Below, one piece after another: positions 35,900 through 40,063 of a stretch of DNA of 64,000 bases (its first letter is position 1; each line of letters begins with the position of its first letter). A program made the translations under genes and the position numbers. Source of the stretch: Devosia riboflavina. Its GTDB lineage: Bacteria > Pseudomonadota > Alphaproteobacteria > Rhizobiales > Devosiaceae. Below the pieces are notes generated by a model. That model had not been told where the DNA came from. It did no database searches and worked only from the letters and a program-made list of their open reading frames with translations. The stretch spans positions 62,001 through 126,000 of the forward strand of contig NZ_JQGC01000004.1 in NCBI RefSeq assembly GCF_000743575.1, read 5' to 3'.

Positions 35900-36700
35900 A
35901 TGGCTCGTCTCCACGTTGTCATCCCCGCCCTCGTCCACACCTTCATCAGGAGCAAGACCGAATATCCCGGCGCCATGGTTTTGGGCTGGCTATCCCAGTT
36001 CGCTGCCTATGGCTCGATGTACACGGCCATCTCCCTCATCCTCGCCCGCTTCGGCTCACTGGGCGGCTGGGTCTGGCCGGAAATCGCCCTGCTGCTCTCC
36101 TTCCACCTCCTCGCCTATTCCCTTGGCGCGTCGCTCAGCTTCGTGCAATTCCGCGAAATGGAAGAAAAAGTGCGCATAGGCACGATGGACGCGATCCTGG
36201 TAAAACCCGTCAGCACCTGGACCTATATCGTCTTCTCCGGCCTTAATATCGGCTATGCTGGCCACATCGTCCTGGCCCTCGGCCTCATGGCCTGGTCCCT
36301 CACCCAGGTCGACGTCACTTGGACCGGGCAGTCCAGCCTGCTCTTTGTCTGCTACCTGATCAGCGCCGCCATGATCATCGCCGCTGTCATGACCATGATC
36401 GGCGCCACCGCGCTCGTCTGGGTAAAATCCAACCACCTCTACCAGATCTTTTTCGGCTTCTGGGAATTGGCCCGCTACCCGCTCAACATCTTCCCCCTCC
36501 CCCTGCAGCTCCTCATGCTCACCTTCGCGCCCCTGGCCTTCATGGCCTATGTCCCCGTCGCGGCGACTCTGGGCAAACCCGTGCCCCTCCTCGGGGATTA
36601 CGCCTCCGCAGCCGCCCTCCTCGCCGGTCCCTTGGTCACCCTAATCGCCATGGCCCACTGGCGCTGGTGCCTCCGCAACTACCAGGGCGCAGGCGGCTAG
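35900..36700 (+). CDS. ABC-2 type exporter, permease subunit 2
   Basis: A 266-residue six-helix permease, companion of the previous one; the matching cytoplasmic loop reads EEKVRIGTMDAILVKPVSTW. The two permeases would form a heterodimer with two copies of the ATPase. Last gene of the operon; the long inverted repeat at 36741-36792 follows and probably protects or ends the transcript. Confidence 0.85.
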   Translation: MARLHVVIPALVHTFIRSKTEYPGAMVLGWLSQFAAYGSMYTAISLILARFGSLGGWVWPEIALLLSFHLLAYSLGASLSFVQFREMEEKVRIGTMDAILVKPVSTWTYIVFSGLNIGYAGHIVLALGLMAWSLTQVDVTWTGQSSLLFVCYLISAAMIIAAVMTMIGATALVWVKSNHLYQIFFGFWELARYPLNIFPLPLQLLMLTFAPLAFMAYVPVAATLGKPVPLLGDYASAAALLAGPLVTLIAMAHWRWCLRNYQGAGG

Positions 36701-36734
36701 GATTTCTGCACAGAATCCACCCATCCTCGATTGT

Positions 36735-36798
36735 CACCCCGGCGAAGGCCGGGGCCCAACTTGAGATCTCGGGATAGGCCCCGGCCTTCGCCGTTGTG
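36735..36798. repeat. Paired REP-type palindromes forming a 16-bp inverted repeat
   Basis: 36741-36756 is perfectly complementary to 36777-36792, flanked by TGTCACC and GTGACA. It sits after the ABC-2 operon and before the aroG leader. Confidence 0.85.
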
Positions 36799-36895
36799 AC
36801 ACGTATGCGTCCCACTCATTTGGCCCAAAAGGACCGACACCCCCTCCTAAAGTCGGGACTCGACAAGCCCCGACTCCTCCGCTAGCTTCCTCACC

Positions 36896-36970
36896 ATGAT
36901 CAACGCAGCGACCTTTTTTTGGTATTTTAGCTATCCGCTCCCGGCGGAGGCTATCGCGCGCGTGTCCTGA
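36896..36970 (+). CDS. Aromatic-rich leader peptide of the DAHP synthase gene
   Basis: A 24-codon frame from ATG 36896 to TGA 36968-36970, with seven consecutive codons Phe-Phe-Trp-Tyr-Phe-Ser-Tyr at 36914-36934: six of seven are for aromatic amino acids. It precedes a terminator and an alternative antiterminator, the standard layout of a ribosome-mediated attenuator. Its purpose is to sense charged tRNAs for Phe, Trp and Tyr; the peptide itself probably has no function. Confidence 0.85.
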   Translation: MINAATFFWYFSYPLPAEAIARVS

Positions 36971-37007
36971 TCCCGACAAGACCAGACCAAATCGCAAGCC
37001 AGCCGCC
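36943..37007 (+). promoter_or_regulatory. Antiterminator of the aroG attenuator
   Basis: GGCGGAGGCT at 36943-36952 can pair with 36997-37007 (nine base pairs with one small bulge). This uses the left arm of the terminator, so the two structures exclude each other. The upstream half lies inside the leader frame just after the aromatic codons, where a ribosome that has finished the peptide would cover it. Confidence 0.75.
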
Positions 37008-37030
37008 CGACTTCCGAGGCGGCTTTTTTC
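37001..37030 (+). terminator. Attenuator terminator before the DAHP synthase gene
   Basis: The stem AGCCGCC/GGCGGCT with a ten-base loop is followed by six T. It ends 38 bp before the aroG start and has no gene of its own to terminate other than the leader peptide. Confidence 0.85.
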
Positions 37031-37067
37031 TTGGCCCCTCGACCCAAAAAACTTCGAGGACTAAGAA

Positions 37068-38141
37068 ATGCTCAAATCGACCGACGACCTCCGCATCACC
37101 GAGATCAAACCGCTGACCACGCCCATCGAGGTCATGCGCCAGCACCCGCGCACCGATGCCGCGACCCGCACCGTCATCGCCGCCCGCCACGATTTCCATA
37201 ATATCCTGACCGGCCAGGATGATCGCCTGGCAGTCATCGTCGGCCCCTGCTCCATCCACGACCCCAAGGCGGCCATGGACTATGCCAACCGCCTCGTTGC
37301 CCTGCGCGAAACCCTCGGCGATCGCCTCGAAATCATCATGCGCGTCTATTTCGAGAAGCCCCGCACCACCGTCGGCTGGAAGGGTCTGATCAACGACCCC
37401 GATCTCGACGGCAGCTTCAACATCACCCAAGGGTTGCACACCGCCCGCACCCTGCTGCTCGACGTCGCCAATCTTGGCCTCCCCGCCGCTTGCGAATTCC
37501 TCGACATGACGACGCCGCAATACATTGCCGACCTCGTCTCCTGGGCCGCCATCGGCGCGCGCACCACCGAGTCGCAGATCCACCGCGAACTGGCCTCCGG
37601 CCTCTCCTGCCCCGTCGGCTTCAAGAACGGCACCGATGGCAACGTCAAAATCGCCCTCGACGCCGTCCTCTCCGCCTCACACCCGCACCATTTCCTCGCC
37701 GTCACCAAGGACGGTCGTTCCGCCATCGCCGCCACGACCGGCAATGAAGACTGCCACATCATCCTCCGTGGCGGCAAAACCACGAACTACGACGCCCAGA
37801 GCGTTGAAGCCGCGGCCCAGGCCGCAACCAAGGCCGGGCTCAACCCGGCCATCATGGTCGACGCCAGCCACGCCAATTCCTCGAAAAACCCGGAAAACCA
37901 ACCGCTGGTCCTCGCCGACATCGGCACCCAGCTCGCCGCTGGCGACAAGCGCATCATCGGCGTCATGATCGAATCCAACCTCGTCGCCGGCCGCCAGGAC
38001 CTCGTCCCCGGCCAGGAACTGACCTACGGCCAGTCCATCACCGACGGCTGCATCGACTGGGACACGACCGTCACCACGCTCAATGCCCTCGCCGAAGCCG
38101 TCGAAAAACGCCGATCCGTGACCAATCAGGCAGTTGCCTGA
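37068..38141 (+). CDS. aroG: 3-deoxy-7-phosphoheptulonate synthase (DAHP synthase), class I
   Basis: A 357-residue DAHP synthase of the AroG/AroF/AroH type: it joins phosphoenolpyruvate and erythrose 4-phosphate as the first step of the shikimate pathway. Motifs include IVGPCSIHDP, EKPRTTVGWKGLINDP, FKNGTDG and DASHANSSKNP. The enzyme length is that of the feedback-sensitive class. GAGGAC precedes the ATG. The upstream aromatic leader and attenuator predict expression control by Phe, Trp and Tyr supply; which aromatic residue feeds back on the enzyme cannot be read here. Confidence 0.95.
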   Translation: MLKSTDDLRITEIKPLTTPIEVMRQHPRTDAATRTVIAARHDFHNILTGQDDRLAVIVGPCSIHDPKAAMDYANRLVALRETLGDRLEIIMRVYFEKPRTTVGWKGLINDPDLDGSFNITQGLHTARTLLLDVANLGLPAACEFLDMTTPQYIADLVSWAAIGARTTESQIHRELASGLSCPVGFKNGTDGNVKIALDAVLSASHPHHFLAVTKDGRSAIAATTGNEDCHIILRGGKTTNYDAQSVEAAAQAATKAGLNPAIMVDASHANSSKNPENQPLVLADIGTQLAAGDKRIIGVMIESNLVAGRQDLVPGQELTYGQSITDGCIDWDTTVTTLNALAEAVEKRRSVTNQAVA

Positions 38142-39079: not shown

Positions 39080-39523
39080 ATGATCATCATCTCCGAAGCC
39101 CCCTTCGACCCCGGCGCCCTCCTCAACGAGTTTCAGGCCAACCACCCCGAAGCCGGCGCCGCCGTCGCCTTCACCGGCATGGTCCGCTCCACCCCCGATC
39201 GCCCGATCACGGCCCTCATCCTCGAATGCTATCCCGAACTCGCCCAAAACGAGATCGCCACCATTCGCTCCGCCGCCATCGCCCGCTTCAACCTCATCGA
39301 CGCCGCGGTCCTCCACCGCTACGGCCGCCTCGTCCCCGGCGAACCCATCATGCAGGTGATAACCCTCGCCTCCCACCGCCAAGCCGCCTTCGATGGCGCC
39401 CAATACCTGATGGACTACCTGAAAACCGACGCGCCTTTCTGGAAGCAGGAAGACACCGCAGCGGGCACGGAATGGGTGGAAGCCAAGTTGGCGGACGATG
39501 CCGCGCGGGATCGTTGGCGCTAG
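39080..39523 (+). CDS. moaE: Molybdopterin synthase catalytic subunit
   Basis: A 147-residue MoaE: FTGMVRS, LECYPELAQNEI, the HRYGRLVPGEPIMQV strand region and the catalytic-Lys region DYLKTDAPFWKQE. It converts precursor Z to molybdopterin with MoaD. The ATG at 39080 is 1 bp after the moaD stop; an in-frame GTG at 39071 inside moaD is the alternative. The 3' end overlaps parE on the other strand by 4 bp. Confidence 0.95.
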   Translation: MIIISEAPFDPGALLNEFQANHPEAGAAVAFTGMVRSTPDRPITALILECYPELAQNEIATIRSAAIARFNLIDAAVLHRYGRLVPGEPIMQVITLASHRQAAFDGAQYLMDYLKTDAPFWKQEDTAAGTEWVEAKLADDAARDRWR

Positions 39524-39810
39524 TCGAGCCAGGATTTTGGTTCACGCATGGCGTGCACCACGGCTGCCACCCAGATCATCTCGACCTCTGGCCGGTAGAA
39601 AGCCAGATATGATCCGACCACCAGCATCCGCAGCCGATCTTGGATATCGTCTCTTGGGCTACCCATGTTTGGATTCTCAGCCGCCAAATCTATAGCATCA
39701 AGAATGCCATTGATGACTTTGTCGGCGGAGCGTTCGCTTTCTTCGGCAATAAAATACCAGATGTCAGCGATTTGGCGTCTCGCAGCTGGCGATAGGCGCG
39801 CTTCACGCAC
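39520..39810 (-). CDS. parE: ParE-type toxin (RelE/ParE superfamily)
   Basis: A 96-residue toxin: LSPAARRQIADIWYFIAEES at the N-terminus and the C-terminal strand pair MLVVGSYLAFYRPEVEMIWVAAVVH typical of ParE. ParE toxins inhibit DNA gyrase. It overlaps the antitoxin gene by 8 bp and meets moaE tail to tail. Confidence 0.9.
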   Translation of the reverse strand: MREARLSPAARRQIADIWYFIAEESERSADKVINGILDAIDLAAENPNMGSPRDDIQDRLRMLVVGSYLAFYRPEVEMIWVAAVVHAMREPKSWLD

Positions 39811-40063
39811 GCTTGGCCCGCCGGGACTTCACTTCGGCGAAGAAGGCCTCGCGATCCAGCGGTTTAGGCTCGCCGCTGTCAAACCCAGCCTGAATCTCCC
39901 GCCGCAGCCATTCGACCTCTGCCGCTTCGGCCGTCTTGCGCTTTTCCCAAAGCTCCAATGCTTCGCGAATGACCTCGCTATCGGATGCAAACCGCCCCCC
40001 GGCAACCGCCCTCTCGAGCAGCTTCTCGGTCTCATCATCCACCGATATGGTCAGCGTCTTCAT
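39803..40063 (-). CDS. parD: ParD-type antitoxin
   Basis: An 86-residue antitoxin with an N-terminal ribbon-helix-helix, LTISVDDETEKLLERAVAGGRFASDSEVIREALEL, and a C-terminal toxin-binding tail rich in Glu, Arg and Lys. It binds ParE and represses the pair. First gene of the operon; GGGGG lies before the ATG. Confidence 0.9.
   Translation of the reverse strand: MKTLTISVDDETEKLLERAVAGGRFASDSEVIREALELWEKRKTAEAAEVEWLRREIQAGFDSGEPKPLDREAFFAEVKSRRAKRA

Follow-up and report, generated by a model that had tools for sequence, protein, structure and literature searches.

In the window (the whole 64,000-nucleotide stretch of the Devosia riboflavina genome that we analysed, whose positions we use throughout), a type I DAHP synthase gene is preceded by what is very probably a ribosome-mediated transcription attenuator of the classical type. 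We found an aromatic leader ORF, a terminator, an antiterminator that excludes the terminator, and control codons whose placement is compatible with control by stalled ribosomes. Our confidence comes from the conservation of this arrangement, its specificity for aroG, its spacing, the modelled energies of stalled leaders, the comparison with synonymous recodings, and the leaderless look of the transcript. A sequence-only reading of this DNA had already proposed an attenuator with a leader peptide, a terminator and an antiterminator, and had named the pairing partners. Comparison with relatives and stall modelling lend this strong support, and the interpretation in that reading as a whole is partly supported.

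The DAHP synthase gene (37068..38141, plus strand) encodes an AroG-like protein of 357 amino acids from the AroF/G/H family. Its identity, also part of the sequence-only reading, is supported by matches to TIGR00034 (526 bits, with a cut-off of 173) and PF00793 (320 bits); the protein scores under the cut-off of the AroG-specific model NF006723 (550 of 568). The gene has a Shine-Dalgarno-like GAGG at 37056..37059 (plus strand), and its closest AroG relatives among the matches listed are from Devosia, at up to 96% identity, which supports a Devosia-like origin of the DNA. Further downstream, 39520-40063 holds two adjoining ORFs on the minus strand (96 and 86 amino acids), which we take to resemble a ParE/ParD toxin-antitoxin pair.

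The leader peptide ORF (36896..36970, plus strand) begins with the ATG at 36896, has 24 codons and ends with the TGA at 36968-36970. It encodes MINAATFFWYFSYPLPAEAIARVS, whose aromatic codon cluster (36914-36934) reads Phe Phe Trp Tyr Phe Ser Tyr. Thirty nucleotides past the leader stop lies an intrinsic terminator (37001..37029, plus strand), in which a hairpin at 37001-37024 (AGCCGCC-CG-ACTTC-CG-A-GGCGGCT, with a bulged A; -15.1 kcal/mol) runs into six T's at 37024-37029. The 5' arm of this hairpin (37001-37007) is contained in region 3 (36997..37007), which is the antiterminator partner of region 2 (36943..36952, within the leader ORF): GGCGG and GGCT of region 2 pair with CCGCC (37003-37007) and AGCC (36997-37000), respectively. 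This competing duplex has an energy of -19.4 kcal/mol, as computed on a slightly longer stretch. Region 2 has a second potential partner, as region 1 (36928..36939) is predicted to pair with 36943-36953 if the aromatic codons are free of ribosomes. The ORF, the terminator and the competing helix had been placed correctly to the base in the sequence-only reading; the hairpin between regions 1 and 2 and a promoter-like site upstream (see below) are additions to it. That reading had also looked to a fold of 36890-37035. The overall stability of this fold is ordinary (z of -1.27; 21 of 200 shuffles were equally stable). A generic consensus scan of 36700-37100 reported neither a promoter nor a terminator, presumably because the stem is bulged and the hexamers are weak. 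The arrangement nevertheless goes beyond chance because its layout is conserved, the stems show paired changes, and synonymous recodings do less well than the natural sequence.

We infer the start point, the kinetics, termination and the relevant amino acids as follows. Transcription would begin at the leader ATG, giving a leader mRNA without a 5' untranslated region. If tRNA-Phe, tRNA-Tyr and tRNA-Trp are charged, the ribosome would pass the aromatic codons and cover or clear region 2, so that region 3 would be free to pair with region 4 (the 3' arm of the terminator) and the polymerase would halt near 37029. If charged tRNA for Trp9, Tyr10, Phe11 or Tyr13 is short, the ribosome would stall with its front edge just before region 2 and with region 1 hidden; region 2 would then engage region 3 ahead of the synthesis of region 4, letting transcription continue into aroG. 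Without translation, the 1:2 and 3:4 hairpins would both form, and transcription would stop.

The leader is conserved among relatives. Our first set of loci consisted of the window and the best 80 of at least 589 confirmed AroG places. A short frame with at least three aromatics in eight residues lies 5' of aroG in 78 of these best 80 relatives; the other two are L058, which has just 157 nucleotides of upstream DNA, and L073, which has no leader. Under a stricter rule, a leader with a terminator is found in the window and in 77 of the best 80 relatives. Put another way, a terminator (defined as a hairpin before at least four T's) follows 78 of the 79 leaders of the first set (the window and 78 loci), and the exception is L037. 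The AroG of L037, from Rubellimicrobium arenae (Roseobacteraceae by its tree label), falls with its leader within the Devosia branch, which suggests a possible joint transfer of gene and leader.

We then widened the comparison to 158 upstream regions. To the window and the 80 relatives we added 37 loci obtained by searching genomes (including the type II DAHP synthase gene of the same genome, L118, which is not an AroG) and 40 regions that we selected among the matches listed in a search of the phylum. A leader with a terminator was found in 122 regions, a leader only in two (L037 and L157), and neither in 34. We took the match at L157 to be due to chance and scored it as "no" in the tree analysis below. 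The 34 regions comprise L058 and L082 (too little upstream DNA), L118, L073, L083, L108 and 28 of the 40 chosen regions, so 33 AroG regions have no leader under the rules used. Two of these do have something similar: L108 has a leader with a GTG start, which the ATG rule missed, and L083 has a terminator preceded by a degenerate leader (RFY only). Judged from these sequences, the same leader precedes the type I DAHP synthase gene in many other Proteobacteria, with leader-bearing records named Devosia, Bradyrhizobium, Kaistia, Methylosinus, Bordetella and Achromobacter, along with a contig titled Gammaproteobacteria bacterium. Records titled Mycobacterium sp. KBS0706 (L045) and Frankia sp. RB7 (L039) also carry an alphaproteobacterial-type aroG with the leader; they are perhaps misnamed.

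On a tree of AroG (157 rows, built by a quick method), the presence of the leader requires 7 changes, whereas shuffles need 31. A clade of 116 rows contains 111 with a leader, 3 without (L073, L083 and L108) and 2 that were undecidable; among the remaining 41 rows, 12 have a leader and 29 do not. The loci are related to each other, so all of these counts overstate their independence.

The leader is also specific to aroG. We built a profile from 24 leader peptides, without using any AroG sequence, and searched 249 genomes of the order. All 27 matches with E ≤ 0.0011 (which include the window's own leader) adjoin AroG, upstream and on the same strand. The same profile gave 6 matches with E ≤ 7.1e-4 in 278 genomes of the class, of which 5 are at AroG and one is at a contig end; in this last genome (G187), AroG starts at base 161 of another contig. 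The window's genome has a single such leader by this search. Peptide matches with E above 0.003 were treated as chance: in the loci examined, which extend down to L248 in the ranking of the order search, they are not at aroG, except for L247 (E = 0.0045).

The window's genome encodes one type I DAHP synthase and, on another contig, one type II enzyme (L118; G000:C27:17064-18377). Upstream of the type II gene, of pheA (L165) and of pheS (L166), we saw no aromatic-rich short ATG frame with a T run; single frames with two Trp codons were flagged at L118 and L166, each without a T run. So, just one of the two DAHP synthases that we found seems to carry the attenuator. The trpE of this genome is interrupted by a contig end, and no conserved Trp leader was seen at trpE across 11 genomes of the genus. 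In 2 of these 11 genomes, an ORF of the form MGWW..APW precedes trpE (L208 and L210; near base 544, which for L208 is counted after reverse complementing), without a T run. A few Trp-bearing frames with T runs (L211 and L213) were set aside, as we took their position to be trpE itself. More broadly, type I DAHP synthases (at E ≤ 1e-60) are commoner in our sample of the phylum (at least 225 of 398 genomes) than in our sample of the class (8 of 289).

The geometry of the switch is conserved as well. Counted from the first base of the last aromatic codon, region 2 begins 10-13 nucleotides downstream at 85 of 122 loci (median 12, range 5-25). Such a spacing is about the distance to the downstream edge of a ribosome that holds that codon in its A site. 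As the sequence-only reading had expected of a genuine attenuator, the homologous leaders at the 122 loci keep the aromatic codons and show paired changes in the stems. At the position of the arm after the CCGCC core, the bases in region 2, the arm and the 3' arm of the terminator are T-A-T at 82 loci, G-C-G at 9 and C-G-C at 5; at the remaining 26, one of the two pairs is absent or a G-T pair occurs. At the position before the core, the bases are C-G-C in 56 loci, T-A-T in 3, T-G-C in 13 and C-G-T in 1, and region 2 is too short in 49. The end of the core is T in three loci, where region 2 has A in two and G in one. These are raw counts, with no significance attached.

The leader mRNA looks leaderless, with a predicted start at the A of the ATG at 36896. 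In the window, a predicted sigma-70-type promoter (36860..36888, plus strand) has a -35 element of TCGACA (36860-36865), a 17-nucleotide spacer and a -10 element of TAGCTT (36883-36888), and it ends 8 nucleotides 5' of the leader ATG. The relatives share a conserved block upstream of the leader. Among the 120 leaders with enough upstream DNA, the hexamer that best resembles TATAAT begins at -14 to -12 in 85 (a count made without a shuffle control), and a TGAC or TTGAC core lies within -45 to -27 in 79, as compared to 7.2 expected from base shuffling. A Shine-Dalgarno-like motif is present at 2 of the 120 leader starts, versus 24 of 26 aroG starts (the window and L001-L025). Across most of the relatives, then, a promoter-like sequence adjoins the ATG and a Shine-Dalgarno motif is rare, while the generic scan of the window was negative. 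Five leaders of the f205 kind have a consensus without such a promoter, and the main text of a study of start sites in B. japonicum (PMC4842269) does not contain the term aroG. Further upstream, at 36737-36758, we noticed a palindromic repeat, CCCCGGCGAAGGCCGGGGCCCA, with 55 copies in the genome (26 forward and 29 reverse, allowing up to 2 mismatches); a control pattern had 0 copies.

To model the effects of stalling, we folded the RNA left free by a stalled ribosome at 30 C, ending at the terminator loop. Averaged over 99 distinct leaders, the net energy of the antiterminator was -11.9 kcal/mol with the ribosome stalled in the cluster, -4.2 kcal/mol for free RNA, and -1.6 kcal/mol with the ribosome past the cluster (at least 4 codons beyond the last aromatic; a ribosome that reaches the arm is assigned an energy of zero). 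Stalls in the cluster had a lower energy than both of the others in all 99 leaders. In the window, the energy drops from -3.3 kcal/mol at F7 and -4.4 at F8 to -7.2 at W9, -8.7 at Y10, -10.8 at F11 and -12.3 at S12; it then rises to -8.5 at Y13, -6.6 at P14 and -2.4 at L15, and it is -1.9 for the free RNA. At 64 of 78 loci, the steepest loss of energy begins at the last aromatic codon or one codon earlier. The choice of ribosome edge made little difference: for edges of 9, 12 and 15 nucleotides, the means across 122 loci were -11.7, -12.1 and -11.8 in the cluster and -2.4, -1.7 and -1.8 at 4 codons past it.

We also compared the natural leaders with leaders in which the codons after the cluster were replaced by random synonymous codons, weighted by the pooled codon usage of the aroG genes of the first set. 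The observed leaders had a mean of -15.2, versus -7.4 for the recoded ones. Of the 99 distinct leaders, 93 beat 90% of their 60 recodings, 45 beat all 60, and none was worse than the median. The window's leader (-12.3) was better than any of its 60 recodings (mean of -5.2).

Folds of the complete leader at equilibrium speak against the model. In the window, the terminator wins at every stall position. Across 78 loci, its probability fell below 0.5 at a codon of the cluster in just 31, and in the Devosia group in 2 of 19. Because the terminator is favoured at equilibrium, timing must decide the outcome, and so our later folds end before the 3' arm of the terminator; in the attenuator model, the antiterminator must form first and persist. 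In these truncated folds, the probability that region 3 pairs upstream was similar whether the ribosome stalled before the cluster or within it. The net interaction energy does tell the two apart, and it was adopted as our measure after that probability had been seen.

Which amino acids would the leader sense? At 98 of 122 loci, and in 78 of the 99 distinct peptides, the eight residues richest in aromatics include Phe, Tyr and Trp. The remaining 24 leaders, including those from Bordetella and Achromobacter, have Phe and Tyr without Trp in this stretch. It is possible, if somewhat improbable, that the attenuator responds mostly to a single amino acid (Phe, or Phe together with Tyr), with Trp and some of the Tyr codons as passengers. 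The leaders without Trp fit with this, and the window has just one Trp codon. Also, as described in PMC11802643, the AroR leader of C. glutamicum, with its Phe-Tyr-Phe, responds to the supply of Phe and not of Tyr, so the presence of a codon is no proof of sensing. On the other hand, most loci do have all three aromatics; the pathway's product is common to all three; and the modelled effect of a Trp codon resembles that of Phe and Tyr codons, with mean energies for stalls in the cluster of -11.7 kcal/mol for Phe (255 codons), -12.1 for Tyr (243) and -11.2 for Trp (79). In the window's own leader, the first two Phe codons fall outside the sensitive stretch, as their stalls yield -3.3 and -4.4. 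The claim of the sequence-only reading that starvation for any of the three aromatics triggers read-through is plausible and is compatible with these modelled energies.

For Phe, the leaders strongly prefer TTT, the opposite of the aroG genes: the ratio of TTT to TTC is 276:53 in the 122 leaders (which are from related loci), versus 35:416 in aroG of the window and of 77 relatives. For Tyr, the ratio of TAT to TAC is 185:134 in the leaders, versus 151:251 in the aroG genes. In the window, the Phe codons concerned lie within 36914-36928. Both codons of each pair are decoded by one tRNA, so the effect of the bias may be to slow decoding or to leave the aromatic stretch unpaired.

In the classical model, the 1:2 hairpin holds region 2 when ribosomes are absent. 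A different switch, which we consider unlikely, would make little use of this hairpin: the pairing of regions 2 and 3 would be the default, a passing ribosome would mask region 2, and loss of translation would turn aroG on. The truncated folds described above are what this switch would predict, as region 3 pairs upstream with a mean probability (across 78 loci) of 0.72 for stalls before the cluster, 0.74 for stalls in it, and 0.29 for stalls after it. However, the net gain from the antiterminator is far smaller for free RNA than for stalls in the cluster, both on average and for the window at its best. Moreover, in ribosome-free RNA, pairing with upstream bases already occupies region 2, with a probability of 0.96 in the window and of at least 0.5 in 90 of the 99 distinct leaders, and the complete, ribosome-free leader keeps the terminator at a probability of at least 0.9 in 70 of 78 loci.

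A conserved, structured 5' region with a terminator could look much the same if it were a riboswitch, a T-box or a protein-bound leader and the small ORF were incidental. We consider this very improbable. No Rfam family matched at its gathering score, either in the window or in the leader at any of 14 related loci; conservation tracks the peptide and its distance from the helix; and the element can be retrieved with the peptide alone. (A glycine riboswitch, RF00504, was found with 45 bits at L112:9-112, away from the aroG leader.) That the ORF arose by chance before an ordinary terminator, as short aromatic-rich frames occasionally do, is contradicted by its conservation and its specificity for aroG, and we give this almost no credence.

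We would give an even chance to a more ambitious version of the classical attenuator, in which one leaderless device across many proteobacterial families acts as an OR gate for the charging of Phe, Tyr and Trp tRNAs, with UUU-biased Phe codons tuned for stalling, and with a terminated RNA and a peptide that might act in trans as well. If attenuation by this leader is confirmed, then many Proteobacteria could couple the first step of the shikimate pathway to the demand for three amino acids with a single RNA device. This device may take the place of the repression by TyrR and TrpR that is known from E. coli, where aroF and aroH are repressed by these proteins, as described in PMC11802643. Metabolic engineers could also use the leader as a natural sensor of how far the aromatic tRNAs are charged. 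Since some lineages have no Trp codon, the leaders may form a natural series for studying how the amino acid specificity of attenuators evolves. This would be a wide family of attenuators for which we saw no entry in Rfam, Pfam or NCBIfam (for the latter two, three leader peptides were tried, with no match at E up to 1). Our literature searches turned up no description of a proteobacterial aroG leader, although there could be an earlier account in Vitreschak et al. 2004, Neshat et al. 2014 or Merino et al. 2008.

The layout of the aroG leader, with its four regions, its terminator and antiterminator, and its control codons, is that of pheL-pheA and trpL-trpE in E. coli. In contrast, these E. 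coli attenuators each respond to one amino acid and control genes of terminal branches. In the ilv and thr attenuators, the control codons of a single leader correspond to several end products of a branched pathway, as we propose for aroG, but these have branched-chain or Thr/Ile codons and control other genes.

Two systems are closer in other respects. In C. glutamicum, AroR is an aromatic leader that precedes the DAHP synthase gene aroF and also acts by attenuation (Neshat et al. 2014, as related in PMC11802643 and PMC4046766). It differs in being actinobacterial and in having Phe-Tyr-Phe, with no Trp mentioned in those accounts; the two leaders are compared here by description only. The sequence-only reading considered a three-aromatic leader to be unusual. 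Judged from our searches, such a leader appears to be new at the common first step, but the ilv, thr and AroR leaders are precedents for parts of the design. The trpL-trpE(G) attenuator of S. meliloti, according to PMC7298713 and PMC10117765, resembles the aroG leader in being alphaproteobacterial, in depending on the ribosome and in having an RNA that begins at the leader AUG. It differs in its Trp control codons and its target, trpE(G), and its products, the rnTrpL RNA and the peTrpL peptide, act in trans. The mechanism that we propose is a classical one; the proteobacterial aroG target and the three-aromatic leader appear to be new.
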